Below are positions 14,699 to 37,206 of a DNA stretch of 64,000 bases, piece by piece. Every line of letters begins with the position of its first letter. Within the stretch, counting starts at the first letter, position 1. Where the stretch lies: assembly GCA_030690545.1 (NCBI GenBank), contig JAUYGN010000010.1, positions 1 to 64,000 on the forward strand, read 5' to 3'. The notes under the pieces are model-generated. The model worked only from the letters and a program-made list of their open reading frames with translations. It ran no database searches and was not told the DNA's origin. The position numbers and the translations under genes are program-made. Source of the stretch: Solirubrobacteraceae bacterium (GTDB lineage: Bacteria; Actinomycetota; Thermoleophilia; Solirubrobacterales; Solirubrobacteraceae).

Positions 14699-14715
14699 CC
14701 ATTGCAATACCTAGG
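14699..14715 (-). promoter_or_regulatory. CCTA box 5, before the WtpA-like gene
   Basis: On the minus strand CCTAGGTATTGCAATGG lies directly before a -10-like TATGAA (14698-14693), filling the place of a 17-base spacer. It points at the WtpA-like gene starting at 14669. Confidence 0.6.
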
Positions 14716-14767: not shown

Positions 14768-14784
14768 CCTATGCGAAGCATATG
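14768..14784 (+). promoter_or_regulatory. CCTA box 6, before the pilD operon
   Basis: CCTATGCGAAGCATATG, symmetric around GAA, followed by TATGTT (14781-14786) as a possible -10. It heads the rightward run of five closely packed genes ending with the site-2 protease. Confidence 0.65.
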
Positions 14785-15858: not shown

Positions 15859-16626
15859 GTGACGCCAGCGTTGGTCGTCACGTTCGCCGCGGCCGGCGGC
15901 CTCGTCGCCGGCTCGCTGCTGAACGTCGTGGCGGACCGCCTCCCGCGGCGCGAATCGCTGCTGGCCTCGCTGCCGCGCTGTCTGTCGTGCGGGCGCCGCG
16001 TGCGCCTGCGCGACAGCGTGCCGGTGCTGTCATGGCTGCTGCTGCGCGGGCGCTCTCGCGACTGCGGCGCTCCGATCGCGGCGCGCCAGGCGATCGTCGA
16101 GGTCCTGACCGCCGCGCTGTTCGCCGCCGTCGTCCTCGTGCTGCACGGAGACGTGGCGGCGACCGTCCTCGGGCTGATCCTCGTCGCGTTCCTCATTCCG
16201 CTGGCGCTGATCGATCTCGACCACCGCATCCTGCCCAACCGGCTGACCGCGCCGGCCGCCGTACTCGCCGTCATGGCCGGGACCGTGCTCGATCCCGGCG
16301 GCCAGGTCGAGCGCCTGATCGCGGGCGCGGCCGCCGGCGGGACCTTCCTGGCGATCGCGCTCGCCTACCCGGCGGGCATCGGCCTGGGCGACGTCAAGCT
16401 CGTCGGGCTGCTGGGGCTGTTCCTCGGGCGGGAGGTGGCCGTCGCCGTCCTCGCCGCGCTCCTGCTGGGCATCGGTGTCGGCGCGGCGATCATGGCCCGC
16501 CAGGGCATCGCCGAGGGGCGCAAGACGGCGATCCCCTTCGGCCCGTTCCTCGCCGCCGGCGCCGTCGTCGCGCTGCTCGTCGGGCCGGGGCTCGTGCAGG
16601 GCTACCTGGACGGGTTCCGGGGCTGA
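15859..16626 (+). CDS. pilD: Prepilin peptidase (A24)
   Basis: 255-residue membrane aspartic protease that cleaves and usually N-methylates type IV prepilins at the membrane. Both catalytic Asp motifs are present: LIDLDHRILPN (about 116-126) and GIGLGDVKL (about 174-182), among about seven membrane segments. The cytoplasmic loop keeps CLSCGRR, but the second Cys pair is reduced to a single DCG, so the zinc site may be incomplete. Starts at GTG 15859. It should process the pilin-type proteins encoded at 21517, 24998, 26560 and 34797. Confidence 0.92.
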   Translation: MTPALVVTFAAAGGLVAGSLLNVVADRLPRRESLLASLPRCLSCGRRVRLRDSVPVLSWLLLRGRSRDCGAPIAARQAIVEVLTAALFAAVVLVLHGDVAATVLGLILVAFLIPLALIDLDHRILPNRLTAPAAVLAVMAGTVLDPGGQVERLIAGAAAGGTFLAIALAYPAGIGLGDVKLVGLLGLFLGREVAVAVLAALLLGIGVGAAIMARQGIAEGRKTAIPFGPFLAAGAVVALLVGPGLVQGYLDGFRG

Positions 16627-17873: not shown

Positions 17874-17890
17874 CCTATGCAATAGCTAGG
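17874..17890 (+). promoter_or_regulatory. CCTA box 7, before the 42-residue ORF
   Basis: CCTATGCAATAGCTAGG, with TAGGAA (17887-17892) overlapping its right half as a possible -10. The small gene at 17908 and the large surface protein follow. Confidence 0.65.
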
Positions 17891-21331: not shown

Positions 21332-21361
21332 TTGACATGAGTCCTAGGCTTTGCATAGGTT
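21332..21361 (+). promoter_or_regulatory. Pilin promoter with CCTA box 8
   Basis: Consensus TTGACA (21332-21337), 18 bases, TAGGTT (21356-21361). The box CCTAGGCTTTGCATAGG (21343-21359) fills the spacer and overlaps the -10. The leader is about 150 bases long and contains a hairpin CACCGC-GAA-GCGGTG near 21378. Confidence 0.75.
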
Positions 21362-21516
21362 AGCTGGTCGTCGGCGCACCGCGAAGCGGTGTGCGCGAAA
21401 CCGCATCGGCGGAACGCGCATGTCTTCGCTCGCAGACGGATCACCTGCGAGGCGGGACGGCAGGGCCGGACCAGCACAGCTTTCGCGGCAACCAGCGTCA
21501 AAGGGGGATGGGCCAA

Positions 21517-21876
21517 ATGAAGGACCGAATCAAGCGTTTGAAGGTAGGCGGGGGCCAGGACGGCTTCACGCTCATCGAGCTCCTCGTCGTCATCACGATC
21601 CTCGGCATCCTCGCCGCGATCGTCGTGTTCTCGGTCGGCGGCATCAACGATCGCGGCCATGACTCCGCGTGTGAGTCGGACGTATCGACGCTGCGCATCG
21701 CGCAGGAAGCGCATTTCGCGCAGGAGGGCTCGTACGCGAATGAGGACGCTCTGGTGGCTGAGAATTTCCTGGCGAAGGCGTCCGTCTATCACGACACGAC
21801 CGGTGGTGCCACCACTTACAACATCACCCGCGTGGAGACCCCGGTGCCGCCCGGCGGCCCGTGCCCCGTGCCCTAA
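21517..21876 (+). CDS. Type IV pilin (major pilin candidate)
   Basis: 119 residues with a short class III leader: basic residues, then QDG|FTLIELLVVITILGILAA with Glu5 after the cut, as PilD requires. The remaining 85 residues form a small globular pilin domain with Cys at both ends (DSACESDVS and GPCPVP), a typical disulfide-bounded D-loop. ATG 21517 is preceded by GGGGG at a good distance; ATG 21508 is too close to it. Its own promoter, long leader and following hairpin mark it as a separately expressed, probably abundant pilin. Confidence 0.9.
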   Translation: MKDRIKRLKVGGGQDGFTLIELLVVITILGILAAIVVFSVGGINDRGHDSACESDVSTLRIAQEAHFAQEGSYANEDALVAENFLAKASVYHDTTGGATTYNITRVETPVPPGGPCPVP

Positions 21877-21920
21877 CCACTGACGGGCCTGGCAGCTCCG
21901 CAGGTCGCCAGCACTGGCGA

Positions 21921-21962
21921 CGAGGTGCAGCGGGAGCGGCTCGAGCCGCTCCCGCGACCTCG
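21921..21962 (+). terminator. Strong hairpin after the pilin gene
   Basis: Outer stem CGAGGT / ACCTCG and a perfect inner 10-bp stem CGGGAGCGGC / GCCGCTCCCG around a TCGA loop, 45 bases after the pilin stop. No U tract. It probably ends or stabilises the pilin mRNA and separates it from pilB. Confidence 0.65.
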
Positions 21963-22019
21963 TCGTCCATCACGAGCGATCGTGGTGGACGGCCTGTCGC
22001 GGTCCGCACTCGATCAACA

Positions 22020-22036
22020 CATAGGTAATGCACAGG
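22020..22036 (+). promoter_or_regulatory. CCTA box 9, before pilB
   Basis: CATAGGTAATGCACAGG, a recognisable but weaker copy of the dyad, 58 bases before the pilB start. No clear -35; TACGCT (22041-22046) could be the -10. Confidence 0.5.
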
Positions 22037-22093
22037 CGTGCTACGCTCGCGTGGTGCTGAGGCCATCGTGTGTGTGGCTCGGAGGGTGCCGGC

Positions 22094-23905
22094 ATGTCTG
22101 AATCTCCGACGACGGAGCTGACAGCGCAACCCGAGCCCGATGACGGAGCGGCGGCGCAAGCGCTCCCGACGGTCGCGGGCACGCCCGTGCCGCCGGAGCC
22201 TGCGACGTCCGAGGAGGATCCGCGGCCGGAGCTCTTCGGCGAGCGGCTCGTCCGGCGAGGCCTGATCACGCAGACGCAGCTCGGCGAGGTCCTGCTGCAG
22301 CAGGAGGCGTCCGGCAAGCGGATCGGCAACCTGCTCGTCGAGCTCGGCGCGCTCGACGATCGCGACCTCGCCGTCGAGCTCGGCGACATCTTCGGCCTGC
22401 CGCTCGTCGATCTCCGGGCGGAGCAGCCCGAGCAGCCCGCGCTCCAGACGATCCCGGAGGGCGTCGCCCGCTCGAGCGTCGTGCTGCCGCTGCGCCTGGC
22501 CGGCGAGGCGCTCGAGATCGCCGTCGCCGACCCGCTCGACGAGCCTGGCATCGACGCCGTCGAGTCAGCTGCCGGCCGCGAGGTGCGTCTGCTCGTCGCG
22601 CCGGCGTCGGAGATCCTGCGCGCGATCCAGACGTCCTACCGCTCGCTGACCGACGTCGACCGCCTCGTCGATGCGTTCGAGGCGGTCGACGCGCTACGCA
22701 GCTCGGCTGCGGCCATCACCGCGGACGAGGGTGACGACGCACCGATCGTGCGGCTCGTGACCCAGGTCATCACGCAGGGCCTGCGCGACCGTGCCTCCGA
22801 CGTGCACATCGAGCCGCAGAACGACCGCGTCCGGGTTCGCTTCAGGATCGACGGCGCGCTGCACGACGTGCTCGCGCTGCCGGCCTCGATGGCGTCCGCG
22901 CTCGTCAGCCGCCTGAAGATCATGGCGGCGATGAACATCGCCGACCGGCGCCGCTCGCAGGATGGCCAGATCGCGATGACCGTCGACGACCGCGAGATCG
23001 ACGTCCGCGTCAACACCTGCCCCACGGTGTGGGGCGAGAAGGCGGTCCTGCGGCTGCTCGATCGCACACGCGTCCTCTACCGGCTCGACGACCTCGGCAT
23101 GCGCCCCGAGACGCACGCCGCGTTCACGCAGCTCGTCCGCGCGCCGTTCGGGATGGTCGTCTGCGCCGGGCCGACCGGTAGCGGCAAGACGACGACGCTG
23201 TACGCGACGCTCGCCGAGGTCAACCAGACCGAGCGCAACGTCACGACGATCGAGGATCCCGTCGAGTACGTCTTCCCGTCGCTGACGCAGATCCCGATCA
23301 ACGAGCAGGCCGGGTTGACGTTCGCCACCGGCCTGCGCGCGATCCTGCGCCAGGATCCCGACGTGATCCTCGTCGGTGAGATCCGCGACGCCGACACCGC
23401 GCGAATCGCGATCGAGTCGGCGCTCACCGGCCACCTCGTGCTCTCGTCGCTGCACGCGACCGATGCCTGCGCCGCCCTGCAACGCCTCGTCGACATGGGC
23501 ATCGAGCCGTTCCTCGTGACCTCGACGGTGACCGGGATGGCGAGCCAGCGACTCATCCGCCGCGTCTGCGACGAGTGCCGGGTCGAGATCGAGCCGAAGG
23601 TCGACGAGGTGGCGTTCTACCGCGAGCACGCAGCCCCCGGCGCCCCGCCGCTGGGACGCGTGTGGGAGGGCGAGGGCTGCAACTTCTGCTCGCAGACGGG
23701 CTATCGCGATCGCGTCGGCGTCTTCGAGCTCGTCCGCATGACAGAGTCGATCAAGCGGCTCATCGTCGAAGGCGCGTCGGTCGAGGAGCTGCGCGCCGCC
23801 GCGCAGCGCGACGGCACCCGCTCGCTGTTGCAGGAGGCACTCGGGCTCGTCCAGGCCGGTGTGACGACGAACGCAGAGGTCGTGCGCAGTGTCTACGGCG
23901 GTTGA
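22094..23905 (+). CDS. pilB: Pilus assembly ATPase PilB
   Basis: 603-residue GspE/PilB ATPase that powers pilus extension at the inner membrane. An N-terminal MshEN-like domain (GERLVRRGLITQTQLGEVLL, about 47-100; a domain that can bind c-di-GMP in relatives) precedes the ATPase core: Walker A GPTGSGKTT (about 358), IEDPVEYVFPSLTQ, Walker B DPDVILVGEIRD, His box LSSLHATDA. The zinc-binding tetracysteine is present as CDEC and CNFC. ATG 22094 is chosen because GGAGG lies eight bases upstream. First gene of a run of seven overlapping genes to 29926. Confidence 0.95.
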   Translation: MSESPTTELTAQPEPDDGAAAQALPTVAGTPVPPEPATSEEDPRPELFGERLVRRGLITQTQLGEVLLQQEASGKRIGNLLVELGALDDRDLAVELGDIFGLPLVDLRAEQPEQPALQTIPEGVARSSVVLPLRLAGEALEIAVADPLDEPGIDAVESAAGREVRLLVAPASEILRAIQTSYRSLTDVDRLVDAFEAVDALRSSAAAITADEGDDAPIVRLVTQVITQGLRDRASDVHIEPQNDRVRVRFRIDGALHDVLALPASMASALVSRLKIMAAMNIADRRRSQDGQIAMTVDDREIDVRVNTCPTVWGEKAVLRLLDRTRVLYRLDDLGMRPETHAAFTQLVRAPFGMVVCAGPTGSGKTTTLYATLAEVNQTERNVTTIEDPVEYVFPSLTQIPINEQAGLTFATGLRAILRQDPDVILVGEIRDADTARIAIESALTGHLVLSSLHATDACAALQRLVDMGIEPFLVTSTVTGMASQRLIRRVCDECRVEIEPKVDEVAFYREHAAPGAPPLGRVWEGEGCNFCSQTGYRDRVGVFELVRMTESIKRLIVEGASVEELRAAAQRDGTRSLLQEALGLVQAGVTTNAEVVRSVYGG

Positions 23906-25001
23906 GCCGACGCTGGCCGAGCGCGGCCGCGGCATCCTGCAGATCGAGCTGACGCCGAAGAAGGTCAAGCCGGTCCACCTCATGAACTTCTGCCGGTACC
24001 TGTCGGTGTTCCTGACGGCCGGCATCCCGATCCTCGACGCCCTGGCGATCATCGAGGTCGACACGCCCGACAAGAAGCTCAAGCAGGTGATCCGAGAGAT
24101 CTCCGCTGCCCTGCGCCAGGGCGACAACCTCGCCACCGCGGTCGCGGTGCACGGTGGGTCGCTGCCGAACTTCTTCGTCAGCATGGTGACCGCCGCCGAG
24201 GAGACGGGGCAGATCGCAGCCGTCCTCGGCCAGATCGCCGTCTACATCGAGCGCGACATCGAAGCACGCCGGAAGTTCAAGAGCGCGCTGACCTATCCAT
24301 CGGTCGTCGTCGGGATGTCGCTGGTCGCGGTGGTCGTCCTCGTGACCTTCGTACTGCCGCGCTTCGTGACGTTCTTCAAGGACTTCGGCGCAGAGCTGCC
24401 GCTCCCGACCAGGATTCTCGTCGCCGTCAGCGAGTTCGTCGCCGGCTTCGGGCTGTTCGTGCTGGTGGGCCTCGTGCTGGTCGGGCTCACGCTCGTGTTC
24501 GGGACGGTGCGGGGAAAGGGCCGCCTGCTGCGCGACCGCGCGATCCTTCGCATGCCGCTGTCGGGGAAGGTGATCCGCTTCGCCGTCGTCGAGCGCTTCT
24601 GCCGCGTGCTGAGCTCGATGGTCCAGGCCGGCGTGCCGCTGCCCGTGGCGCTCGACCTCGCCGCGACCGGTGCGAGCAACCGGGCGTTCGCCGAGAAGCT
24701 GCGCCTGGCGCGCCGCGAGATGATCGAGGGCCAAGGGCTCTCCGGGCCGCTTGCCGCAACCGGCATGTTCCCCGTGGCCGCCGTGCAGATGATGCGCGTC
24801 GGGGAGGAGACCGGCACGCTCGAGGAGCGCCTGTCGGAGATCTCGAGCTTCTACGGCAAGGAGGTCGAGCACCGGCTCAAGCGGCTCACCGACCTGCTCG
24901 AGCCTGCGGCCGTCGTCTTCGTCGGCCTGCTCGTCGGCTTCGTCGCGGTGGCGATCGTGTCGGCGATCTACGGCGTCTTCCAGGGGACGAACCTGAAGTG
25001 A
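23889..25001 (+). CDS. pilC: Pilus inner-membrane platform protein PilC
   Basis: 370 residues of the GspF/PilC family: two repeated helical cytoplasmic domains (LMNFCRYLSVFLTAGIPILD about 32; IRFAVVERFCRVLSSMVQAG about 230) and three membrane segments, ending VGFVAVAIVSAIYGVFQ. It connects PilB/PilT rotation to pilin insertion. The GTG start overlaps pilB by 17 bases and the stop overlaps the next gene (GTGA). Confidence 0.95.
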   Translation: MSTAVEPTLAERGRGILQIELTPKKVKPVHLMNFCRYLSVFLTAGIPILDALAIIEVDTPDKKLKQVIREISAALRQGDNLATAVAVHGGSLPNFFVSMVTAAEETGQIAAVLGQIAVYIERDIEARRKFKSALTYPSVVVGMSLVAVVVLVTFVLPRFVTFFKDFGAELPLPTRILVAVSEFVAGFGLFVLVGLVLVGLTLVFGTVRGKGRLLRDRAILRMPLSGKVIRFAVVERFCRVLSSMVQAGVPLPVALDLAATGASNRAFAEKLRLARREMIEGQGLSGPLAATGMFPVAAVQMMRVGEETGTLEERLSEISSFYGKEVEHRLKRLTDLLEPAAVVFVGLLVGFVAVAIVSAIYGVFQGTNLK

Positions 25002-26563
25002 GCCCTGCCCCGTTCACTTCGCAGGACCTGCACGTGGTCGGGCACGCCGCGGGGCCGTCGCAGCGCGCCGACGAGTCGGGCGAGACGCTGATCGAGCTCA
25101 TCATCGCGGTGTCGATCATGTCGATCACGATCGTCGCGATCGTCGCCGCACTCGCTGCGGCGGTTGCGAACGCGACGCGACAGCGGGCCGACGCGCAGGG
25201 CCAGGCGGTCCTCACGACGCTCGGCGAATGGACGCGAGATGCCGACTTCATCCCCTGCGCGACCCCGGGCGAGTACAACGCGCTTCCTGGCAGGCCGCCG
25301 GCGCCCGAGGGCTTCGGCGTGCGGGTGACGCGCGTTGCGTCGTGGGACGGGGCCGGCTATCTGGCGGGTGCTGTGCTGAGCGCCGACGCCGGTGCCGGCG
25401 CGGGCACGATCGAGGTCGACGACGTCGCCGGGCTGCCGGCCGCGCCGTTCGACGTCCGCGTCGGTCCCGTGGAGGGCCCGCAGGAGCCGGAGTCGCTGCG
25501 GGTGACGGTCGTCGACGCCGCAGCGGGGACGCTGACGGTCGACGCCGACCCGGAGACGGGCGACCCCGAACCGACCGCGGTCGACCACGCCGAGGGCGAC
25601 GCCGTCTCGGTCTGCTCCTCGCCGGATCCGGACGGCGACGGCGTCGTCGCGGGGACCACGTACCAGGCACAGCTTCTCACGCTCGGCGTCACCGGGCCGG
25701 GCATTCCGCTCGGCGACGGCACGCAGCCCTACGAGGCGACGGCGACCGTCGCCAAGCGCGGCCCGCTCATCATCCCGACGCTCACGGCGACCGCGCACGC
25801 GCCGCTTGCGAGCGACGCGGACGCGTGCGCAGATCCCGGGCCCGCGCCGGATCCCCCGCCGCCCGACCCGCCGGCCGGCAGGCCGCTCTGGATCTGCAGC
25901 ACCGCGTCCCTCGCCACGCCGGTCACGGGCGCGTCCCCGGGCGGCGCGGTGACGTTCGCGCTCTACGGCCCCGGCGCCTACGACGAGCAGACGGGCGCCT
26001 GCGCGGGCGATGCGGTCAGCCTGACCGGTCCGCCGCCGACCGTCGACATCGTCGATCCCGGCAGGATCGACTCCGGCACGTTCACGTTCACGCCGGAGAC
26101 GCCGGGGACCTATCGCTGGAGCGTGTCGTACCGCGGCGATGAGGCCCACGAGGGGGCGACGGTCGCCTGCGGCGCCGCCGGGCAGAGCTTCGACGTCGCG
26201 CAGGCCGAGCCGACGCTGACGGCGGTCGCGCCCGTCGCGGGCGAGGATCCGCCGCCCGCGACGATCGCGGTGGGGGGCGTCGCCGTCGCGAACCTCGCGG
26301 ACAGCGTGAGTCCGAATCCCGACGCACCGCAGCCGATCGAGTTCGCGCTCTACGGAGCAGAGGACGACGACTGCTCGGCGACGGATCCAGAGCCGGCGCC
26401 GACGATCGTGCCGAGCACCGAGCCCGCGGCGATCGACGACGACTATCAGGCCGAGCTGTTCGCGACGCCCGGATCGTTTCATTGGCAGGCGACCTACCTC
26501 GCGAACGCGAACAACGCGGAGGCGAAGACCGCGTGCGTCCCGGTCACGGTGACCGAGCCATGA
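24998..26563 (+). CDS. Large minor pilin with Ig-like segments
   Basis: 521 residues. The N-terminus carries a pilin-type helix GETLIELIIAVSIMSITIVA (about 28-47) with Glu at the expected place; its leader is longer than usual. Then about 470 residues of acidic beta-rich sequence with a LPAAPFDVRVGP/TLTVDADPETG module like those of the next gene, and two Ig-like stretches (GTYRWSVSYRGDEAHEGATV, FHWQATYLANANNAEAKTAC). Probably a tip or adhesion subunit. It overlaps pilC and the following minor pilin by 4 bases each. Confidence 0.8.
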   Translation: MSPAPFTSQDLHVVGHAAGPSQRADESGETLIELIIAVSIMSITIVAIVAALAAAVANATRQRADAQGQAVLTTLGEWTRDADFIPCATPGEYNALPGRPPAPEGFGVRVTRVASWDGAGYLAGAVLSADAGAGAGTIEVDDVAGLPAAPFDVRVGPVEGPQEPESLRVTVVDAAAGTLTVDADPETGDPEPTAVDHAEGDAVSVCSSPDPDGDGVVAGTTYQAQLLTLGVTGPGIPLGDGTQPYEATATVAKRGPLIIPTLTATAHAPLASDADACADPGPAPDPPPPDPPAGRPLWICSTASLATPVTGASPGGAVTFALYGPGAYDEQTGACAGDAVSLTGPPPTVDIVDPGRIDSGTFTFTPETPGTYRWSVSYRGDEAHEGATVACGAAGQSFDVAQAEPTLTAVAPVAGEDPPPATIAVGGVAVANLADSVSPNPDAPQPIEFALYGAEDDDCSATDPEPAPTIVPSTEPAAIDDDYQAELFATPGSFHWQATYLANANNAEAKTACVPVTVTEP

Positions 26564-28242
26564 GTCGCACGCGCGAGGCCGGCTTCACCCTCCCCGAGCT
26601 GCTGATCGCGGTCACGCTTCTGGCAATCGTCATCGGCGTGCTCAGCCAGGCCGTCATCGTCGGCCTGAAGACGACGGCGGCGACCGCGACGACGCTGATC
26701 GGGGTCGCCGATTCGCGCGTGCTGAGCTCGCATCTCCAGACGGACGTCAAGCAGGCCGACACGCTCGGCACGACCGGTGGCCCGCCGTGCAGCTCGACGG
26801 CGCCCGAGCTCGCCTCGGCGACCCGCGTGCTGTGGACGCTCGGCGACGTGTCGCAGGACGGAACGCGGGTCGTCGCGGCGTACTTCGTCGTGCGCGTCCC
26901 CGCGGACCCCGGCGAGGGCACGTCCGCGCGCAGCGAGCTGCGCCGGCTCGCGTGCTCGCTCGACGGCGACGGTGCCGCGACGCCGACGGAGTCGCCCGGC
27001 ATCGTCGTGGCCAGCTGGCCCGGCCTCGCCGACGACCCGGTGATCGCGTGCGACGATCGTCCGCGCCCGCCCGGCGGCCGCACGGTGCTCGCCGAAGCGA
27101 TCGCCGCGGACGCGACGATCGTCGAGGTCGCCGGATCGATCCGGCTGCCGGAGTCCGGCCCCTACACGCTGTTCGTCGGCGATGAGCCGATGGAGGTCAC
27201 CGCCGGCTTCGGCACCGACGAGCTGACGGTGACCCGGACGACCCCCGAGGTCGGCCACGCGGGCGGCACGCCCGTGACCTGGGGTCCGCTGCTCGCGGCG
27301 GCGAGCGACGAATCCGAGACGACGCTGACGATCGCGAACCCCGGTGGGCTGCCCGCCGCGGACGAGCCCTACACGATCTTCGTCGGCGGCGAGCAGATGG
27401 AGGTCGCCGCGGGCTCCGGCGGCGGCACCCTGGACGTCGAGCGCTCGTCGGCGCCCGCGGCGCACCCGGCGGGCACGCCGATCTCGCTCGGTCCGGTCGT
27501 CCTCGGGGCACTCGGCGAGACGGACACGACGCTGACGGTGTCCGACGCGTCGAGCCTGCCCGCGCCCGAGCCGACGTACCGGATCGACGTCGGCGGCGAG
27601 GCGATGACGGTGACCGCCGTCGATGCTGCGACGAACGAGGTCACCGTCGAGGAGCGCCCGGCCGGCGTCGCGCATCCGCTCGGCGCTCCGCTGACCCATA
27701 CGCAATGCGGGGCGAGCGCGGATCGCTTCGCCTCGCCCGCGGTGGCGCTGCTGTTGGAGCAGATCGACGAGACGGAGACCGTCCTGGCGGTCGATGACGT
27801 CAGCGGACTGCCGGCGAGCCCGCCGCCGTACCGGATCTTCGTCGAGGACGAGCCGATGACGGTCGATTCCGTGGAGGACAACGAGCTGACGGTGACGCGC
27901 GGGACACCGCCCGCCGAGCACCCGGCCGGCGCCGCGGTCGTCTGGCGGCCGCGGATGCTGCGAACGCCGCTCGCCGCGGCGGGGACTCTGGTCTCGCTTG
28001 CGGATGCGACGGGCCTGCCGTCGTCCGGCCCGAGCTACCGGGTGTCGATCGGTGACGAGTCCCTGCGGGTGACGGGCGGGTTCGGCACGCTGGATCTCCA
28101 GGTCAGCCGGTCGTCCGGCGCGGCCCACCTCGCTGGCACGCCCGTCGAGTGGGTGCCCGGCTCGATCGCCGTGCGGGTTCCGGCGTCCGGCGCGGTGGGC
28201 TCCAAGCCGTACGGCCTGCTCGTGACACGGAGGTCGACGTGA
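26560..28242 (+). CDS. Minor pilin with five tandem beta modules
   Basis: 560 residues. Class III signal EAG|FTLPELLIAVTLLAIVIG, a pilin-like domain to about residue 165, then roughly five repeats of 70-85 residues with the pattern LP-x-YxIFVGxExMxV, then TLxVxR, then AHxAGTPV (for example PYTLFVGDEPMEV, PYTIFVGGEQMEV, TYRIDVGGEAMTV, PYRIFVEDEPMTV). Similar modules occur in phage tail and actinobacterial surface proteins. The long repeat array should extend from the pilus surface or tip. ATGA overlap with the gene before, TGATG with the gene after. Confidence 0.8.
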   Translation: MSRTREAGFTLPELLIAVTLLAIVIGVLSQAVIVGLKTTAATATTLIGVADSRVLSSHLQTDVKQADTLGTTGGPPCSSTAPELASATRVLWTLGDVSQDGTRVVAAYFVVRVPADPGEGTSARSELRRLACSLDGDGAATPTESPGIVVASWPGLADDPVIACDDRPRPPGGRTVLAEAIAADATIVEVAGSIRLPESGPYTLFVGDEPMEVTAGFGTDELTVTRTTPEVGHAGGTPVTWGPLLAAASDESETTLTIANPGGLPAADEPYTIFVGGEQMEVAAGSGGGTLDVERSSAPAAHPAGTPISLGPVVLGALGETDTTLTVSDASSLPAPEPTYRIDVGGEAMTVTAVDAATNEVTVEERPAGVAHPLGAPLTHTQCGASADRFASPAVALLLEQIDETETVLAVDDVSGLPASPPPYRIFVEDEPMTVDSVEDNELTVTRGTPPAEHPAGAAVVWRPRMLRTPLAAAGTLVSLADATGLPSSGPSYRVSIGDESLRVTGGFGTLDLQVSRSSGAAHLAGTPVEWVPGSIAVRVPASGAVGSKPYGLLVTRRST

Positions 28243-28721
28243 TGCGCGCCCGCACGCTGCTCCGCGCGCGCATCGCGCCCGCGTCGAGCGAGAGTGGCGC
28301 ATCCTTGATCATCGCGCTCGCCTTCCTCACCCTCGTCGCGGTCGGTGCGCTCGCGCTCGCGAGCCTTGGCTTCACCTCGCAGAAGGCAGCCAACGTCCAC
28401 GCCGAAGGCGACCGCCTCGTCGGCGCGCTCGAGAGCGGCCTGCAGGGTGCGATCGAGGAGGTGCGGGTGCGCGAGCCGTTCGCCTGCCCGGCGACCGTCG
28501 CGCCTCCGCTGGTCGTCGACGGACACGCGGTCACGGTGGAATGCGACGCGGACGCGGACGCGACGCTGCGGCTCGTCGCCACGTCGGGCGCATGTCCGAT
28601 CCGGCCGTCGCGGACGCTCGAGGCGATCGTCACGTTCTCGACGATCGGGGACGGCGATGGCGCGCGGATCGCCCGCATCACCGCGTGGAGAACCATCCAA
28701 GACCCCTGCCCGACGCCATGA
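28242..28721 (+). CDS. PilX-like minor pilin component
   Basis: 159 residues with an N-terminal hydrophobic helix (ASLIIALAFLTLVAVGALAL, about 23-42) preceded by ESG, like PilX/GspK-type minor pilins that lack Glu5. It has two Cys pairs in a short C-terminal domain. ATG 28242 follows GGAGG and overlaps the previous stop (TGATG); the stop overlaps pilT (ATGA). Probably part of the pilus tip-initiation complex (inferred from position and size). Confidence 0.7.
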   Translation: MRARTLLRARIAPASSESGASLIIALAFLTLVAVGALALASLGFTSQKAANVHAEGDRLVGALESGLQGAIEEVRVREPFACPATVAPPLVVDGHAVTVECDADADATLRLVATSGACPIRPSRTLEAIVTFSTIGDGDGARIARITAWRTIQDPCPTP

Positions 28722-29926
28722 CCGAGCACGTCAACCGCATGCAGACCGACGGAGCCGAGCACACGCTGCACTCGGCCCAGAACGACGCTGGCGGAAGCCT
28801 GCTGACGAGCGCGCCGGTGCCGGCGCTGCTCGATGCCTGCCTCACCGCGCTCTGGGATCACGGCGGGACCGATCTCATCATCACCGCGGGCGCGCCGCCG
28901 CTACTGCGCATCGATGGCGAGATCCACCCGATGGAGGGCCGCCAGACGCTGACGTCCGCGGTGACGTCGAGTGTCATCCGCGAGCTGCTCGGCCCCGAGC
29001 TGACGGCGGTGTTCGAGCGCAACAAGCAGGCCGACTTCGCGTTCAGCTGGAGAGATCAGGCTCGGCTGCGCGGAAACGCGTTCATGCAGAAGGGCACGGC
29101 GGCGCTCGCGCTGCGCATGCTCACGCTGCAGATCCCGACGATGGACCAGCTCAACCTGCCCGCCACCGTTCAGGGCTGGACCGACCTGCCGCGCGGGCTC
29201 GTGCTCGTGACCGGCCCGACCGGCAGCGGCAAGTCGACGACGCTCGCCTCGATGCTCGACCACATCAACACCCACCAGGCGCGGCACATCGTCACGATCG
29301 AGGATCCGATCGAGTACTTCCATTTCCACAAGCGCGGCGCGGTGAACCAGCGCGAAGTGGGGCCCGACACCAACTCGTTCGCCGACGGCCTGCGCGCCGT
29401 CCTGCGCGAGGATCCCGACGTCCTGCTGATCGGCGAGATGCGCGACCCGGAGAGCATCCAGGCGGCGCTGACGATCGCCGAGACCGGCCATCTCGTGTTC
29501 GCGACGCTGCACACGAACGACACGGCGCAGACGTTCGACCGGATCGTCGACGTCTTCCCGGCCGAACGCCAGCCGCAGATCCGGCTGCAGCTCGCGCACA
29601 CGCTCGCCGGCGTGCTGCACCAGCTCCTGATCCCCCGCGTCGACGGTGGGCGGGTCGCGGCGTTCGACGTCCTCAACGCCACGCAGGCCGTGCGCAACCT
29701 CGTGCGCGAGGGCAAGACGCGCCAGATCCGCAACATCGTCGCGACCGGCCAGCGCGAGGGGATGCAGACGCTCGAGATGTCGCTCAGCGAGCTCGTCGTG
29801 GTCGGCGTCATCGGCTACGGGGAGGCGCTCGAGCACAGCCTCTACCCCGACGAGGTCGTTGCTCCGGCAGCGGCGGAGCCGGCGCTCGACGGAGGCGCTG
29901 CCGCAGCGCCGCCGGCCCGCGGCTGA
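28718..29926 (+). CDS. pilT: Pilus retraction ATPase PilT
   Basis: 402 residues. N-terminal PAS-like region (GGTDLIITAGAPPLLRIDGE about 46), Walker A GPTGSGKST (about 165), IEDPIEYFHFHKRGAVNQRE, Walker B DPDVLLIGEMRD, His box ATLHTNDTAQT and the C-terminal helices of PilT (AIRNLIREGK-type motif AVRNLVREGKTRQI). It powers pilus retraction, so this pilus should be dynamic (twitching or uptake) and not a fixed secretion pseudopilus. Confidence 0.95.
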   Translation: MTEHVNRMQTDGAEHTLHSAQNDAGGSLLTSAPVPALLDACLTALWDHGGTDLIITAGAPPLLRIDGEIHPMEGRQTLTSAVTSSVIRELLGPELTAVFERNKQADFAFSWRDQARLRGNAFMQKGTAALALRMLTLQIPTMDQLNLPATVQGWTDLPRGLVLVTGPTGSGKSTTLASMLDHINTHQARHIVTIEDPIEYFHFHKRGAVNQREVGPDTNSFADGLRAVLREDPDVLLIGEMRDPESIQAALTIAETGHLVFATLHTNDTAQTFDRIVDVFPAERQPQIRLQLAHTLAGVLHQLLIPRVDGGRVAAFDVLNATQAVRNLVREGKTRQIRNIVATGQREGMQTLEMSLSELVVVGVIGYGEALEHSLYPDEVVAPAAAEPALDGGAAAAPPARG

Positions 29927-29939
29927 AGCGCTCGGATCG

Positions 29940-30458
29940 ATGACCGCCAACAGTCCGCACGATCGCTTCCGACCGGTCCCGAAGCCGCCGCCGGGGTTCA
30001 GCGCAGTCGCCGCGCAGCCGGCCCCGCAGCGCGCCGCGATGGTCGCTGGCTCCGCGCGGCGCGCCGGGTTCTGGAGGCGATTCGTGGCGGCGCTCATCGA
30101 CCACACGCTCATCGTCGGACTGTCGCTGCCGTTGTTCGCGATCGACGCCGCGCTGTACTACGTCGTGGGCATCCTCGGCGGGATCGTGTACCTGACCGTC
30201 CTCGAAGGCGGTGCGAGAGGGCAGACGATCGGCAAGCGAGCGCTCGGCATCCGCGTCGTCAGCCACGCAGCCGGCGCGCCGATCGGCCGCGTCCGCGCGT
30301 TCATCCGCTACGTCGGCCGCTACGTGTCCTCGATCCTGCTGCTCGGCTACCTGTGGATGCTGTTCGACCGCGAGAAGCAGACCTGGCACGACAAGATGGC
30401 GGGCTCGATCGTGGTGCGGGCCGCCGACGCCTCGCCTTCCGGCCCGGTCGTCAGCTGA
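29940..30458 (+). CDS. RDD-family membrane protein
   Basis: 172 residues. After a Pro-rich N-terminal 40 residues comes the RDD domain: RRAGFWRRFVAALIDHTLIV (R and D motif residues), two to three membrane segments, GGARGQTIGKRALGIRVV and WHDKMAGSIVV near the end. Function of the family is poorly known (some are ion antiporters). It lies 13 bases after pilT and closes the pilB operon. Confidence 0.8.
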   Translation: MTANSPHDRFRPVPKPPPGFSAVAAQPAPQRAAMVAGSARRAGFWRRFVAALIDHTLIVGLSLPLFAIDAALYYVVGILGGIVYLTVLEGGARGQTIGKRALGIRVVSHAAGAPIGRVRAFIRYVGRYVSSILLLGYLWMLFDREKQTWHDKMAGSIVVRAADASPSGPVVS

Positions 30459-30677
30459 CGACGCCGCTCGTTCGGGCTCGGCACCCGACGCTCGGCAGCT
30501 CACGAACTCGGATGGTCCCGATAGCGCGACCGGCCGGGCCTGCGACCGGCTCGCCGTTCGCGTGGTGGCGTCAATCCAGCATCACTCATAAGCGAAGGCG
30601 CCGGGCACGGCGACCGGACAATCCAGAAGCCGTATCCGACAGAAGCGCAGTAGTAGTTGGGCGGCCCGCCGATTTCA

Positions 30678-30694
30678 TCTATGTATTACCTATG
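30678..30694 (+). promoter_or_regulatory. CCTA box 10, upstream of the FG-GAP/RTX gene
   Basis: TCTATGTATTACCTATG, located 8 bases upstream of a separate -35 element. In this copy the box is upstream of the promoter instead of inside it, so it may work by activation. The 30459-30840 interval otherwise holds only the promoter and leader. Confidence 0.55.
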
Positions 30695-30702
30695 GACATT
30701 TC

Positions 30703-30730
30703 TTGACTTGCTGCTGATCTAGCGCATAGT
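30703..30730 (+). promoter_or_regulatory. Promoter of the FG-GAP/RTX gene
   Basis: TTGACT (30703-30708), 16 bases, CATAGT (30725-30730), then a leader of about 100 bases ending in AGGGGG (30831-30836) before the start. Confidence 0.5.
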
Positions 30731-30840
30731 CTGGCGACCGTTCTCGGCGGCGGCGGGGAGGGCGGACGACGCGTGGTCCCGCCTGCCGGCGAGGTTGATC
30801 GAAGTCAGTTGCTAACCGTCGTTACACGACAGGGGGATGG

Positions 30841-32451
30841 ATGTTCAGCTTCGATGTTCAGCAGCGATCGCGGTCGCGAGGCCGTCCGGCGACGGTGCCC
30901 GGTGGCATGCGGCGCACGGCAGCGCGATGCGCGCTCGCATCGGTGATCGGGATCACGGCGATCGGGTCCGCGGTCTCGGCCGCGGCCGCTGCTACGCCGG
31001 CGAGCTTCGATGCGGCGTCGACCTTCGGGCTCAATGGAGGTGCGCGCCCCACGGCCGTGGCGGTCGGCGATCTCAACGGCGACGGCAAGCTCGACACCGT
31101 TACGAGCAACCGCACGTCGAACACGGTGTCGGTGCTGCTCGGCGATGGCGCTGGCGGCCTCGGCACGGCGACGAGCTTCGGGCTCGGCGGCGCCACCTCA
31201 CCGATCGCCGTGGCGATCGCCGACCTCGACAACGACGGCAAGCTCGACGTGGTGACGTCGAACGGCGCGCACAACAGCGTCTCGGTCCTGCTGGGTGATG
31301 GCACGGGCGACCTTGGCACCGCGACGACGTTCTCCCTCGCGGGAGGCCAGTTCCCGAACGACATCGCCATCGGCGACCTCGACGGCGACGGCAATCCGGA
31401 CGTCGTCACGTCGAACGGCAACTCCGACAACGTCTCGGTGCTGCTCGGCGACGGTCTCGGCGGCCTCGGCACGGCGGCGAGCCACGGGCTCAGCGGCGGC
31501 GACTTCCCGCAGAGCGTCGCGATCGCCGACCTCGACGGCGACGGCAAGCTCGACGTCACGGTCGCCAACCTGTTCACGAACGACGTGTCGGTGCTGCTCG
31601 GCGACGGTGCCGGCGGCCTCGGCTCCGCTGCCAACTTCGCGACCGGCTCGCTGCCGGTCGCCCTTGCCGTGGCGGACCTCGACGGCGACGGCAAGCGCGA
31701 TGTCGCGACGGCGAACCTCAGCGGGAGCACGTCGGTGCTGCTCGGTGATGGCGCAGGCGGTCTCGGCAGCCCAAGCGCATTCGGGCTCGGCAGCGGGGCG
31801 AACGGGCCGAGCGCGATCGTCGTCGGTGATCCGAACGGCGACACCGAGCCCGATCTCATCACCGCCAACGGCACGTCGCACAACGTCTCGGTTCTCGCCG
31901 GCGACGGAGCCGGCGGCTTCGGTCTGGCAAGCGTGTTCGGTCTCGCGGGGCCTCGAGGACCGAGCGGAATCGCCGTCGGCGATCTCAACGGCGACGGGAG
32001 GCCCGACCTCGTCACGAGCAACGAGACGACCAGCAACGTCTCGGTGCTGCTCAACAACCTCGTGCCGAGCTGCGACGGCCATCCGGCGACGATCGTCGGC
32101 ACGGAAGGCAACGACGTCCTCGTCGGCACCAGCGGCGACGACGTCATCGTCGGGCTGGGCGGCAACGACGTCATCGTCGGGCTGGGCGGCAACGACATCA
32201 TCTGCGGCGGCGCCGGCGACGATGTCATCGACGGTGGCTCGGGGCACGACCGGCTGTTCGGCCAGGCCGGCAACGACGTCATCTCCGGCGGCGCCGGCGA
32301 CGACGTGATCTCCGGTGGCTGGGGCGACGACGTCATCTCGGGCGGAAACGGTGACGACACGATCGACGGCGCCGCTGGCTGGGACGTCTGCGCCGGTGGC
32401 TCGGGCACCGACACGGCTGTCAACTGCGAGATCGAGAGCTCCATCCCCTAG
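30841..32451 (+). CDS. Secreted FG-GAP/VCBS and RTX repeat protein
   Basis: 536 residues. A signal peptide (TAARCALASVIGITAIGSAV, AAAAATPA cut region about 50). Then about seven FG-GAP/VCBS repeats of about 55-60 residues with the Ca2+ loop DLNGDGKLD/DLDGDGKLD and VSVLLGDGAGGLG, forming an integrin-like propeller (about 55-405). Then RTX nonapeptides (GGNDVIVGL, GAGDDVIDG, GWGDDVISG, about 430-525) that bind calcium. Likely a secreted or surface Ca2+-dependent adhesion or matrix protein. ATG 30907 is an alternative start. Confidence 0.85.
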   Translation: MFSFDVQQRSRSRGRPATVPGGMRRTAARCALASVIGITAIGSAVSAAAAATPASFDAASTFGLNGGARPTAVAVGDLNGDGKLDTVTSNRTSNTVSVLLGDGAGGLGTATSFGLGGATSPIAVAIADLDNDGKLDVVTSNGAHNSVSVLLGDGTGDLGTATTFSLAGGQFPNDIAIGDLDGDGNPDVVTSNGNSDNVSVLLGDGLGGLGTAASHGLSGGDFPQSVAIADLDGDGKLDVTVANLFTNDVSVLLGDGAGGLGSAANFATGSLPVALAVADLDGDGKRDVATANLSGSTSVLLGDGAGGLGSPSAFGLGSGANGPSAIVVGDPNGDTEPDLITANGTSHNVSVLAGDGAGGFGLASVFGLAGPRGPSGIAVGDLNGDGRPDLVTSNETTSNVSVLLNNLVPSCDGHPATIVGTEGNDVLVGTSGDDVIVGLGGNDVIVGLGGNDIICGGAGDDVIDGGSGHDRLFGQAGNDVISGGAGDDVISGGWGDDVISGGNGDDTIDGAAGWDVCAGGSGTDTAVNCEIESSIP

Positions 32452-32510
32452 GGGAGCGGTCTCGCATGCATACGAACTACGTCAACAGAACAACGAGAAA
32501 GGTGGAGGAC

Positions 32511-33833
32511 ATGCACAGACGTTTCGACGGCCATGTGGCCGCGCGCCCAGCGCGCGCGGTCGGAGGTCGGTGGTGGCGGCGACGCAACACGGTGCTCGCC
32601 GGCACGCTGACGGCGGCGATGCTCGGCCTGGGAGCGCAGGCCAGTCAGGCGCAGGAGGTCGTCGAGATGGGGGCGGCCAACAACGTGTACCAGACGATGC
32701 GCGAGGCGGCACCGATCCTCGCGGCCGGCAGCGGTGCGGAGACGTTCACGTCGAACGCGACGCCGCAGGTCGGCGGTTGGTGGAACGCCCTCGGTGCCGA
32801 CAGCAACCCCGATACGACGACGCTGCGTGGCATCACGTCGGGGAACCTGCGTAAGCAGTTGCTCGGGCCTGGGCCGTATACGGCGCCTGGTGCGGCGTGT
32901 TCGACGCCTGCGACGACGTGTCCGTACGGGCCGTTGCAGATCGATGCGTTCTTCTCAGCCGATCAGGGCAACGTCAATCAGGTGCTTCTGGAGGACGTCG
33001 ACGGGGGTACGTGTGAGACGGGAGCCGGCCAGGGACAGGGCGGCGAGAACGTGACGGCGTGCCCTGGGCGCGAAGACACCAAGACGCTGTTTACCGTCGG
33101 TCGGCTGGCGATCTACAGTTGCGACGCGGCATACGCGACCGAAGGTGACGACGCCGGTAGTCCTGGTGCTCCGGTCGGTGCCGATCCGAACGGGAGCGGC
33201 AACGGCGTTCCGACGTCGCCGAACTGCAAGGCGGCGCCGGTGACGCTGGACTCCGACGACATGGATGGCCTCGTCGAGTGGCTCGATGCGAGCGACAGCA
33301 ACAAGATGGCGATCGCGTTGCCGTCGTCGGCGCCGTTCGGGGCTGCTGCTCGGCAGGCGTTGATCAACGCGAGCACGGAGGATTGGGAGTACGACGATTC
33401 GTCGGGTAACGCCGATCAGAACGCGTGGCCGGCGGGCACTGGGGCCAATCAGTGCGAGGGCACGTTGCCGACGGGTGCCGTTTGTCAGGTGCGGTTGGAG
33501 GCGGGCATCAGCCAGGTGCGTGGTGCTGTGACGTCGAACACGGTGCAGGTCGGGCTTGCGGCATTGTCGAATCTGCGGAACATCACGTGGACGTCGGGCC
33601 CGGACGACGGGTTGACGACCGATGATCCGAATGTCGTGATCCCGGTGCCGGAGTCGGCGTATACGACGGGGTACGGTCGGATCGAGCAGTATGCCGTCGG
33701 GATCGAGCGCTCGACGCCTGACGGTGACAAGGAGGACGTCGTCGATGACATCCTCGGTGGCGGCCCGTTCAGCGTGACGGGTACCACGGTGCAGACGATC
33801 TTCGCGAACTACGGATACGAGCCGCTGCCGTAG
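32511..33833 (+). CDS. Secreted protein, unknown
   Basis: 440 residues with a signal peptide (TVLAGTLTAAMLGLGAQA, cut near SQAQEV). ATG 32511 follows GGAGG. The mature part has DFFSADQG-like segments (LQIDAFFSADQGNVNQVLL), several Cys, and VPESAYTTGYGRIEQYAVG near the end. It reminds me loosely of periplasmic binding proteins but I cannot assign it. Third codon positions use more G and T (GGTGCGG, GCGTTGATC) than neighbours, so it may have a different origin. It follows the FG-GAP/RTX gene by 59 bases and ends at a strong hairpin. Confidence 0.75.
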   Translation: MHRRFDGHVAARPARAVGGRWWRRRNTVLAGTLTAAMLGLGAQASQAQEVVEMGAANNVYQTMREAAPILAAGSGAETFTSNATPQVGGWWNALGADSNPDTTTLRGITSGNLRKQLLGPGPYTAPGAACSTPATTCPYGPLQIDAFFSADQGNVNQVLLEDVDGGTCETGAGQGQGGENVTACPGREDTKTLFTVGRLAIYSCDAAYATEGDDAGSPGAPVGADPNGSGNGVPTSPNCKAAPVTLDSDDMDGLVEWLDASDSNKMAIALPSSAPFGAAARQALINASTEDWEYDDSSGNADQNAWPAGTGANQCEGTLPTGAVCQVRLEAGISQVRGAVTSNTVQVGLAALSNLRNITWTSGPDDGLTTDDPNVVIPVPESAYTTGYGRIEQYAVGIERSTPDGDKEDVVDDILGGGPFSVTGTTVQTIFANYGYEPLP

Positions 33834-33873
33834 CCGGCTTCGCGATAGTGAAGAAGTAGTAGCGCTGGGTTCG

Positions 33874-33903
33874 GGGCGGGCGAGCGAAGGAGCTCGTCCG
33901 CCC
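33874..33903 (+). terminator. Hairpin after the secreted protein gene
   Basis: 12-bp stem GGGCGGGCGAGC / GCTCGTCCGCCC (one G-U pair) with a GAAGGA loop, 41 bases after the stop; a likely terminator before the next promoter. Confidence 0.6.
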
Positions 33904-33962
33904 GGCCAGCGTCACGCCGAACCGCGTCCACTCTAGGAGGGAGGCGGCGTCTCGCTTGAGAC

Positions 33963-33998
33963 TTGACACGCTCGGGCAAAATCTATGTACTGCCTAGG
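33963..33998 (+). promoter_or_regulatory. Promoter with CCTA box 11
   Basis: TTGACA (33963-33968) and, 13 bases later, TCTATGTACTGCCTAGG (33982-33998), which covers the expected -10 position (TGTACT at a 17-base spacer). It drives the Excalibur gene and probably the pilin-propeller and modABC2 genes behind it. Confidence 0.65.
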
Positions 33999-34062
33999 TG
34001 CATTGCGTCGCGGGGGCCTGGCTCGGCGCACCTGGTTGTCGAACGAAGGAGCTTGGAGGGGG

Positions 34063-34758
34063 ATGAAGCAGCGGATCGTCGTCGATTCCGGCGCGGAGCA
34101 TGGTGCGCCGCCACGCTCGCCTCGCCGGCGGCCGTCGGCAATCGCGTGGCTCGCCTTGGGGGGCGTCCTGCTCGTGGCGCTCGGCGCCGCCGTGATCGTC
34201 CTGCGAGGCGGTGGCGATGACGACGTGCTTCCGGCGAACAACGAGCGGTGCGGGCCGAAGGAGTCGCAGCCGCGAAGCGCGCTGTGCCCGGAGAGCGAGA
34301 CGTTCGACCCGATGCGGTACGTCCGCATCGGGGACCTGTACGACTGCTCCACGTTCGCCACCCAGGCTGACGCCCAGGCCGTGCTGCGCGCCGATCCGGG
34401 CGACCGCAACCGGCTCGACGACAACCGCGACGGCATCGCGTGCCCGCACCTGCGCGAGCCGCGGGACTTCGAGCCCGTCGAGCAGGTCCTGCGCTCGAAG
34501 TGCCGGCAATCGGATCCGCGCAGCGCGCGCTGTCCCGAGCGGTGGCGGCGCTTTGACCGCTTCGATCACGTCAAGAGCCAGGCCGGCGAGTTCAACTGCG
34601 CGTACTTCGCCAGCCAGGCCGACGCGCAGGCGGTGCTCCGCTACCAGATGAGCGATCCCAACGACTTGGACGACGACTACGACGGCATCGCGTGTCCGGA
34701 TCTACCGGGCCCGAAGGACCGCAAGCCCGTCCCGCGGCCTCCCAAGCCGGCCACTTGA
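34063..34758 (+). CDS. Membrane-anchored protein with two Excalibur domains
   Basis: 231 residues: basic N-terminus, one membrane segment (AIAWLALGGVLLVALGAAVI, about 26-45), then two extracellular Excalibur calcium-binding repeats, each with FxCxxFxxQADAQAVLR and the loop DDNRDGIAC or DDDYDGIAC (about 95-130 and 175-212). ATG 34063 follows GGAGGGGG. Excalibur domains occur on surface nucleases and wall proteins; here there is no enzyme domain. It shares a transcript with the pilin-propeller gene 38 bases downstream. Confidence 0.8.
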   Translation: MKQRIVVDSGAEHGAPPRSPRRRPSAIAWLALGGVLLVALGAAVIVLRGGGDDDVLPANNERCGPKESQPRSALCPESETFDPMRYVRIGDLYDCSTFATQADAQAVLRADPGDRNRLDDNRDGIACPHLREPRDFEPVEQVLRSKCRQSDPRSARCPERWRRFDRFDHVKSQAGEFNCAYFASQADAQAVLRYQMSDPNDLDDDYDGIACPDLPGPKDRKPVPRPPKPAT

Positions 34759-34796
34759 AAGCACAGCCAACACATCTCAAGGAGTCGAGGACAACG

Positions 34797-36338
34797 ATGC
34801 ATCCACAGCGACGGTGGCGACAGTTCGGCAACAGCGCGCAGGCCCGCCGCAGCGAGTCGGGCTTCACGCTCATCGAGCTGCTCGTCACGATCACGATCCT
34901 CGGCATCCTGGCCGCGGTCGTGGTCTTCGCGGTGAGCGGCATCAACGATCGAGGTGAGCGGTCTGCGCGCGCTGCCGATGAGCGCGTCCTGCGAACCGCC
35001 CTGGAGGCGTACTGCGCACGCCACAAGAAGTACGCGGAGATTCCCGAGTTGAAGAACGAGAAGTTCCTGGCCGACGATGGGTTGCCGAGAACCGTATACC
35101 ACACAGTGACAACCGGATCCGACGAGGAATGCGGCGAGGGCGACGACTCGTCGTACGTCATTTCAGGCAATGAGACGACAGTCGTCGACAGCTTGGATAT
35201 CCCGGGCCTGGGCCCAGCGCACGTCGCGGTCGATACCGACACGAACGCCGTCTACGTCAGCAACATCCAGTCGGAGAACGTGTCGATATTCGACGGCAAC
35301 ACCAACCAGCACGTCGCGAACGTGCCTACGGGTTCCGGCAACGCGAACGCGAAATGGATCACGGTCAACCCCAACAACAACAAGGTCTACGCGTCGTACA
35401 CCAACAACATCGCCGTCATCGACGGGACCGACCCGGCGAACCCACTGGTCCTGGAGACGATTTCGACAGCAGGCAACGTCAGCGCGCCGATGGTCGTGAC
35501 CTCGACGGGCAACGTCTACGCGAGGACGAACAGCACGACGTACGTCATCGACGGCGCCAGCGACAGCGCGAGCACCGTCGACCTCGGACTACCCCAGCCA
35601 CACCTCGCCGCCGGCGGCTCGCGGGCCTACGCGGTGGGTAGCACGTCGGGGCCGGGTGTCATCAAGATCATCGACGCCGGTGGAGCCATCGACGAGGCGA
35701 CGTTCAACTCGACCGAGCCGGGGTGCACGCAGAACCCGGCGCCGTCGGCGGTCTGCGAGCTCGGTCCCGTAAGCAACATGCGGCAGCCGAAGGTCGACGC
35801 TGCGGTCGGTCGCGTGTTCCTCCACGGACGGGTCTCCGTGGCGACGCCGAGCGGCACCGCGAACGCTCGGTCGAAGGTCTGGGTGCTCAACGCCGCGACG
35901 GGCGCCGTCATCTCCTCGTACCGCGAGGCGGACTCGACTCCCAACTCGTCGGTGGGCGCGTACAACCCGAACACGCGCCGGCTGCACGTCGCGCTCGACG
36001 TCGCGGGTGCGTTCCCGGTCCGCGCCTACGACGTCATGGCCGATCCCGCCGTCGTGGATCTCGGCATCGCGCCGCTCCCCGGCCCCCCGTCGGCCGTCAG
36101 CGTGGACTCGGACGTCGCCGTCGTCAATCCGAACACGAACCGGCTCTACCTCGCGCTCTTCCAGCCCAATCCGACCCTCGGGTCGCCGGGGGGTCTCGCC
36201 GTCCTTGACGTCTCGGGAACGTTCGATGCGTCGGGCGTCCTCGCCGGGGCGAACATCAGGGGCATCGCCGTGAACCCGAACACGAACCGGGTCTACGCGA
36301 TCGACGCCAACGGCCCGACGCTTCACATCCTCGAGTAG
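34797..36338 (+). CDS. Pilin/beta-propeller fusion protein
   Basis: 513 residues. Class III signal ESG|FTLIELLVTITILGILAA (about 20-40) and a pilin domain nearly the same as the major pilin at 21517 (AVSGINDRG against SVGGINDRG) to about residue 120. It then runs into a YVTN-type propeller of about 380 residues: HVAVDTDTNAVYVSNIQSEN, ITVNPNNNKVYASYTNNIAV, GAYNPNTRRLHVAL, VVNPNTNRLYLALF and IAVNPNTNRVYAIDANG. So the pilus could carry a propeller head on some subunits. AAGGAG precedes ATG 34797. It lies between the Excalibur gene and modABC2 with small gaps. Confidence 0.85.
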   Translation: MHPQRRWRQFGNSAQARRSESGFTLIELLVTITILGILAAVVVFAVSGINDRGERSARAADERVLRTALEAYCARHKKYAEIPELKNEKFLADDGLPRTVYHTVTTGSDEECGEGDDSSYVISGNETTVVDSLDIPGLGPAHVAVDTDTNAVYVSNIQSENVSIFDGNTNQHVANVPTGSGNANAKWITVNPNNNKVYASYTNNIAVIDGTDPANPLVLETISTAGNVSAPMVVTSTGNVYARTNSTTYVIDGASDSASTVDLGLPQPHLAAGGSRAYAVGSTSGPGVIKIIDAGGAIDEATFNSTEPGCTQNPAPSAVCELGPVSNMRQPKVDAAVGRVFLHGRVSVATPSGTANARSKVWVLNAATGAVISSYREADSTPNSSVGAYNPNTRRLHVALDVAGAFPVRAYDVMADPAVVDLGIAPLPGPPSAVSVDSDVAVVNPNTNRLYLALFQPNPTLGSPGGLAVLDVSGTFDASGVLAGANIRGIAVNPNTNRVYAIDANGPTLHILE

Positions 36339-36419
36339 TCATGAAGGCACGACCGAAACGACCCTGCCCGCAGTTTCCGGACAACAGCGGCATCAGATGA
36401 CGACGAGAGGCCACGAACG

Positions 36420-37193: not shown

Positions 37194-37206
37194 GCCGCGG
37201 CGACCC

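Follow-up and report, generated by a model that had tools for sequence, protein, structure and literature searches.

The locus described here raises the question of why genes for a type IV pilus should carry what looks like the operator of a molybdenum regulon, and in which direction such an operator would act. ModE, a molybdate-responsive one-component regulator, senses through TOBE/Mop domains and controls modABC by means of palindromic operators overlapping promoters. TunR-type regulators, which respond to tungstate in Desulfovibrio, combine an excisionase-type HTH with TOBE. The window, that is, the whole stretch of DNA analysed, comprises 64 kb of contig C72 from a genome (G000) of 3.53 Mb in 149 contigs with 72% G+C.

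Molybdenum and pilus genes of the window

The features identified are collected in Table 1. The molybdenum inventory of a preliminary description of this DNA, two modABC sets, a storage protein and two extra binding proteins, is borne out: the storage protein is represented by two MoSto subunits, alpha and beta, like those of the solved MoSto, and the extra binding proteins are a free ModA and a WtpA-like protein. The elements of a type IVa pilus (prepilin, PilB, PilC, PilD and PilT) were all identified. PilM was not found in the window, so that a PilM/N/O set is not represented there; one PilM is encoded elsewhere in the genome (C78).

The gap between modA3 and the pilin-propeller gene is of about 80 bp and o32466 starts 14 bp past the FG-GAP gene. 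Since neither modA3B3C3 nor o32466 is preceded by a promoter-like gap, pilus and molybdenum genes probably share transcripts, and two predicted transcription units probably combine pilus/adhesin genes with modABC or with a ModA-like gene. The latter, o32466, is likely a divergent ModA homologue. Members of its family match SBP_bac_11 (7e-5, 0.0012 and 0.052) and the TIGR01256 modA model (5.6e-5, 5e-4 and 0.009), all below the cut-offs, and the family profile retrieves only ModA chains among PDB sequences, with weak matches. Comparison of o32466 with a ModA alignment by hhalign gave no match, and the AlphaFold prediction, made from a 4-sequence alignment, has a pLDDT of 29.

Table 1. Genes, promoters and molybdenum-type (Mo-type) boxes of the window, in order of position
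Feature	Position	Strand	Evidence
Mo-type box before ferritin2-modA1B1C1, weakest counted site	3527-3543	+	10.3 bits
modA1-modB1-modC1	4196-6891	+	modA equivalog above cut-off; Pfam ABC_tran
One-component regulator: MerR/HTH_17 (excisionase-type) HTH + one TOBE/Mop domain	6978-7352	+	
Mo-type box in GTGACA-18-TAGGAT match, geometry as pilin promoter	7491-7507	+	13.9 bits
Mo-type box before orf7777-modA2, strongest site	7746-7762	+	30.6 bits
modA2, free ModA-type binding protein	8189-8881	+	TIGR01256 83.5 bits, above cut-off
Mo-type box, extended palindrome ATAACCTATGCAATACCTAGGTTAT, second strongest; before small membrane-protein ORF at about 9088	9024-9040	+	28.2 bits
MoSto alpha (9982-10821), beta (10856-11674)	9982-11674	-	phmmer 7e-94 and 5e-109 to MoSto chains
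SBP476, WtpA-like oxyanion-binding protein, C-terminal extension	13239-14669	-	WtpA 9e-29, below equivalog cut-off; SBP_bac_11
Mo-type box before divergent SBP476 gene	14699-14715	-	16.1 bits
Mo-type box before zinc-ribbon/PIN/pilD/M50 operon	14768-14784	+	19.3 bits; overlaps -10 TATGTT
pilD prepilin peptidase	15859-16626	+	Pfam A24_N_bact / Peptidase_A24
Mo-type box before o18033 (membrane-anchored beta-propeller-like) and M74 peptidase	17874-17890	+	22.4 bits
Pilin sigma70-type promoter TTGACA-18-TAGGTT	21332-21361	+	-35 21332-21337, -10 21356-21361
Mo-type box, pilin promoter, palindrome CCTAGGCTTTGCATAGG	21343-21359	+	22.5 bits
Major pilin, type IV prepilin signal	21517-21876	+	N_methyl 1.2e-8
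Mo-type box before pilB	22020-22036	+	19.3 bits, 14/17 to CCTATGTAATGCATAGG
pilB	22094-23905	+	T2SSE + MshEN; TIGR02538 1.3e-164
pilC	23889-25001	+	43-51% to pilC of other actinobacterial pilus loci
Minor (pre)pilin-like o24998, o26560, o28243	24998-28721	+	N_methyl 1.3e-6 (o26560), weak 0.006 (o24998)
pilT retraction ATPase	28718-29926	+	TIGR01420 2e-130, above cut-off
Mo-type box upstream of TTGACT-16-CATAGT match, FG-GAP/RTX + o32466 unit	30678-30694	+	19.3 bits
FG-GAP/RTX secreted protein	30841-32451	+	Pfam; relative within S. diastatochromogenes pilus locus
o32466, divergent ModA-like secreted protein (likely)	32466-33833	+	Also in Streptomyces pilus loci
Mo-type box in promoter (TTGACA), Excalibur / pilin-propeller / modA3B3C3 unit	33982-33998	+	18.2 bits
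Excalibur-type membrane protein of pilus module	34063-34758	+	Pfam; relatives in both Streptomyces pilus loci
Pilin fused to beta-propeller, candidate tip adhesin	34692-36338	+	N_methyl 1.2e-8, Lactonase; relatives in Streptomyces pilus loci
modA3-modB3-modC3, 3' of pilin-propeller gene, without own box	36420-39064	+	Gap sequence
Mo-type box before small secreted-looking protein gene o39211	39300-39316	+	18.7 bits
Mo-type box before Big_3_5 secreted protein gene	40783-40799	+	13.4 bits

The box as operator of the molybdenum regulon

The box pattern was searched in 146 genomes of the family, and 29 loci (L044-L072) were fetched by the pattern alone. The box adjoins modA, an HTH-TOBE regulator or ferritin2-modA in 23 of them and is therefore taken as the operator of the molybdenum regulon. 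In many members of a regulator group at roughly 50% identity it ends a few bases 5' of the start codon. This operator, shared by modA/modABC and the regulator as in a TOBE regulon, is a 17-bp palindrome, about CCTATGYAATGCNTAGG.

The regulator of the window joins a DNA-binding domain to a TOBE/Mop domain, as in a molybdate-responsive one-component regulon. Its Pfam matches to TOBE (2.9e-12) and MerR (3e-9) are both above cut-off, the NCBIfam Mop match (3.9e-14, 52.4 bits) is just under the 55-bit cut-off of that model, and the TOBE part matches the solved molybdate-binding structures 1h9j and 1gug. It is the single HTH-TOBE match of the genome by protein search and lies near the boxes; other TOBE matches are in longer frames. 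An identification as ModE proper was ruled out since domain and box both differ, the N-domain being MerR/HTH_17 with one TOBE stretch and the box unlike the ModE consensus. Just before the regulator gene (window 6935-6975) are two half-sites, CCTATGTA and TGCATGTAGG, separated by a wide gap, where autoregulation with altered spacing is possible.

Sites were scored with a symmetric 17-bp matrix built from 20 boxes before regulator or modA genes, all from other genomes, and counts were compared with a dinucleotide Markov null of 30 windows. The window contains 13 sites of at least 10 bits (range 10.3-30.6), against 0.2 expected; the 14th-best score is 8.2 bits, a clear gap below the counted sites, and no site of at least 14 bits occurred in the 30 null windows. 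On inspection the box sites of the window lie upstream of genes. The promoters of pilin, pilB, the pilD operon and further surface genes score 13-23 bits with this matrix from other genomes, and at least six pilus/surface promoters each have a high-scoring box of their own.

The whole-genome pattern scan (3.53 Mb) placed 7 of 10 distinct places in the window. The matrix scan outside C72 covered 1.42 Mb (about 40% of the genome), a sample that includes a few contigs picked for earlier pattern or TOBE matches, and gave just three sites above 13 bits; the genome may thus have further weak regulon members. The C97 site (18.0 bits) lies about 40 bp from modA of a third modABC operon and serves as an internal positive control. 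The C33 site (23.1 bits) precedes a 52-54% paralogue of o32466, and the C131 site (C131:44525 = L241:14525, 26.4 bits) precedes the gene of an RCC1 + DUF6531 surface protein. In the other 19.8 kb of C72 there is one site, of 14.9 bits (C72:78508); this site and C40:7244 (12.1 bits) are apparently within coding sequence and were taken as chance.

The central claim of the preliminary description, that of a molybdenum-type operator at pilus genes, is upheld by the occurrence of the same box at modA and regulator promoters of the family and at the third modABC (C97), with one HTH-TOBE gene nearby. At the level of sequence the presence of this regulon's operator at the pilus genes is well supported. 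Boxes that the preliminary description does not mention were identified upstream of the o18033, FG-GAP, Excalibur/pilin-propeller, o39211 and Big_3_5 genes. The predicted set comprises the molybdenum genes modABC1, modA2, SBP476, modABC3 (via the Excalibur unit) and modABC on C97; the pilus genes pilin, pilB-pilC-minor pilins-pilT-RDD and the pilD unit; and the surface genes o18033, FG-GAP/RTX, o32466, Excalibur, pilin-propeller and Big_3_5.

MoSto was dropped as a target. Its promoter has no matrix site over threshold, and its region (11690-11715) contains TTGACA, a further CCTAGA and, near 11690, a different palindrome, CCTAGAAGTTCTAGG, unscored by the matrix. The latter may be a differently spaced variant of the operator.

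Origin and distribution of the pilus module

No PilB better than about 42% was found in the other 145 genomes of the family. The closest ones (53-61%) belong to Streptomyces sp. SID10853, S. diastatochromogenes, an Acidimicrobiia MAG and a scatter of other genomes in the phylum. Among 12 loci compared, only the two Streptomyces have relatives of Excalibur, pilin-propeller and o32466; beyond these, no further o32466 turned up in the 396 phylum genomes sampled or in a plasmid search. The minor pilin-like o24998 was rejected as a tracer of the module as it evolves too fast. Region 30600-36340 has a G+C of 0.679 versus 0.726, and its genes are also lower in GC3. Since the family genomes lack a close orthologue and the nearest full match is in two Streptomyces, horizontal acquisition of the module is the likeliest reading.

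The pilus promoters of all 12 related loci are without a Mo box, and the molybdenum link is therefore, within the sample, peculiar to this genome. Two further pilB loci of the same genome (C20 and C81) have no box in the sequence scanned, and the PilM locus (C78) has none in the part scanned. Since the pil boxes come from a single genome, which is a 149-contig assembly, footprinting them across species is impossible. Both Streptomyces loci present TGAYTAATCA palindromes between divergent pilin and pilB (L110:9493-9615 and L111:9758-9882; 4 matches versus 0.23 expected in the two loci), and the module therefore seems to be under another operator in Streptomyces. A similar palindrome, GTCAATGATTGAC, was noted in the Streptomyces Excalibur/o32466 region.

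Mode of control and alternative explanations

The box of the pilin promoter had been placed exactly in the spacer. Promoter and box are both present, the box covering most of the spacer and reaching four bases into the -10, so the placement holds only in part; the second and third boxes, at pilB and at the pilD operon, are real and less perfect. No good -35/-10 stands beside the pilB box. The 3' half-site supplies the -10 of the pilin (TAGGTT), 7491 (TAGGAT), pilD-operon (TATGTT) and C131 (TAGGCT) promoters, at 17-18 bp from -35 matches that are not all good. A box over spacer and -10 suggests repression when Mo/W is sufficient.

The account that we regard as probable is that a Streptomyces-type type IV pilus/adhesin module was acquired into or beside the molybdenum locus and that the local HTH-TOBE molybdate/tungstate sensor has its operator in the promoters of this module. 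The oxyanion-bound sensor would occupy the box and, at the -10/spacer, shut RNA polymerase out of the pilin, pilD-operon and mod promoters, which would be off. On Mo/W shortage the apo-sensor would leave, and ModABC, the extra binding proteins, the retractable pilus and the secreted partners would be made together. Binding of ModE depends on oxyanion; by analogy, binding of this sensor would need it too and shortage would therefore derepress. Binding of the box by the sensor, the direction of control and a foraging or attachment role of the pilus are what we infer from the sequence. As the preliminary description suggested, the pilus may respond to Mo/W, with shortage (or, in that description, alternatively excess) as the inducer, and may move cells or gather material. 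A dedicated Mo/W-foraging appendage, in which the retractable pilus, with its own ModA-like protein and propeller adhesin and both co-transcribed and co-regulated with uptake, would reach or capture metal (bound to minerals, organic matter or other cells), is conceivable and doubtful.

Not everything fits a simple repressor, because the pilB box is imperfect, the FG-GAP box lies upstream and MoSto has no site. The FG-GAP and C33 boxes precede TTGACT/TTGACG -35 matches by about 8-9 bp and lie upstream of the best promoter match, so that activation is possible at some sites. This position would allow the sensor to activate the pilus in Mo/W sufficiency, or to be a dual regulator, for instance for attachment where molybdoenzymes can run, and with metal in excess the storage protein encoded alongside would be of use. 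We hold this to be unlikely, however, since the pilin, 7491, pilD-operon and C131 boxes are in the classical repressor position and the modA uptake genes have the same box.

It is less likely still that the sensor binds and pilus expression is incidental, the boxes having spread, or been captured along with promoters, on arrival of the foreign module, and bringing little effect or advantage. The island does lie within the mod region, and the link is found in one genome, the two Streptomyces and ten other related loci being unboxed; but mere insertion would give one or two boxed promoters and not at least six, and three other contigs have boxes as well, at a module paralogue, at a surface protein gene and at modABC. 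It appears very improbable that the palindrome is the site of another regulator, merely shared by the mod genes: most box-carrying loci of the family have it directly before the HTH-TOBE gene or modA, and one HTH-TOBE regulator was found in the genome. Repression in sufficiency by the HTH-TOBE sensor, with induction by Mo/W shortage, remains the preferred account.

Relation to known systems

The system can be described as the regulon of a TOBE sensor into which a pilus has been recruited. In its excisionase-type HTH plus TOBE architecture the regulator resembles the TunR type. With ModE of E. coli it shares a TOBE-type one-component sensor and palindromic operators at mod promoters, whereas its DNA-binding domain is of MerR/excisionase type with a single TOBE, in contrast to the ModE-type winged helix with tandem TOBE. 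The operators also differ, about CCTATGYAATGCNTAGG here versus the ModE consensus ATCGCTATATAN6TATATAACGAT given in PMC2700814. The ModE regulon text of that work, in which regulons wider than modABC are predicted (Geobacter sulfurreducens), names no pilus target.

The pilus resembles other Gram-positive type IV pili in its type IV pilin and its assembly and retraction ATPases (survey PMC3244431). The Streptomyces row of this survey has tad only, without a Pil-type operon, and its part on Gram-positive type IV pili names no metal control. The Streptomyces loci L110 and L111 share relatives of pilA, pilB, pilC, pilD, pilT, Excalibur, pilin-propeller and o32466, one of them also of FG-GAP, but have no Mo box in a promoter, TGAYTAATCA in the divergent pilin/pilB region and no mod genes in 21 kb. 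In the literature searched, molybdate or ModE together with pili brought up no type IV pilus described as controlled by a molybdate/tungstate operator. If the favoured account is right, trace-metal homeostasis would reach past transport to a surface machine, a pilus gained horizontally would be seen to have undergone regulatory capture, and the rare actinobacterial pilus modules with ModA-like proteins would gain a possible function. A defined set of testable promoters results.

Genes adjacent to other boxes

The protein with a Ferritin_2 domain (window 3573-4196) precedes modA1, an arrangement also present in genome G005 (L045), where the ferritin2-modA unit is behind a box like the unit at 3527. 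The short ORF behind the 9024 box (window 9024-9270) has one membrane stretch and is without annotated partner. On the opposite side of the C131 box is the gene of a multi-pass membrane protein (AI-2E-transporter-like). Directly 5' of modA2, orf7777 (7777-8169) encodes a 130-aa protein, its family unassigned, with two HG(P/A)IRLR(D/E) motifs.
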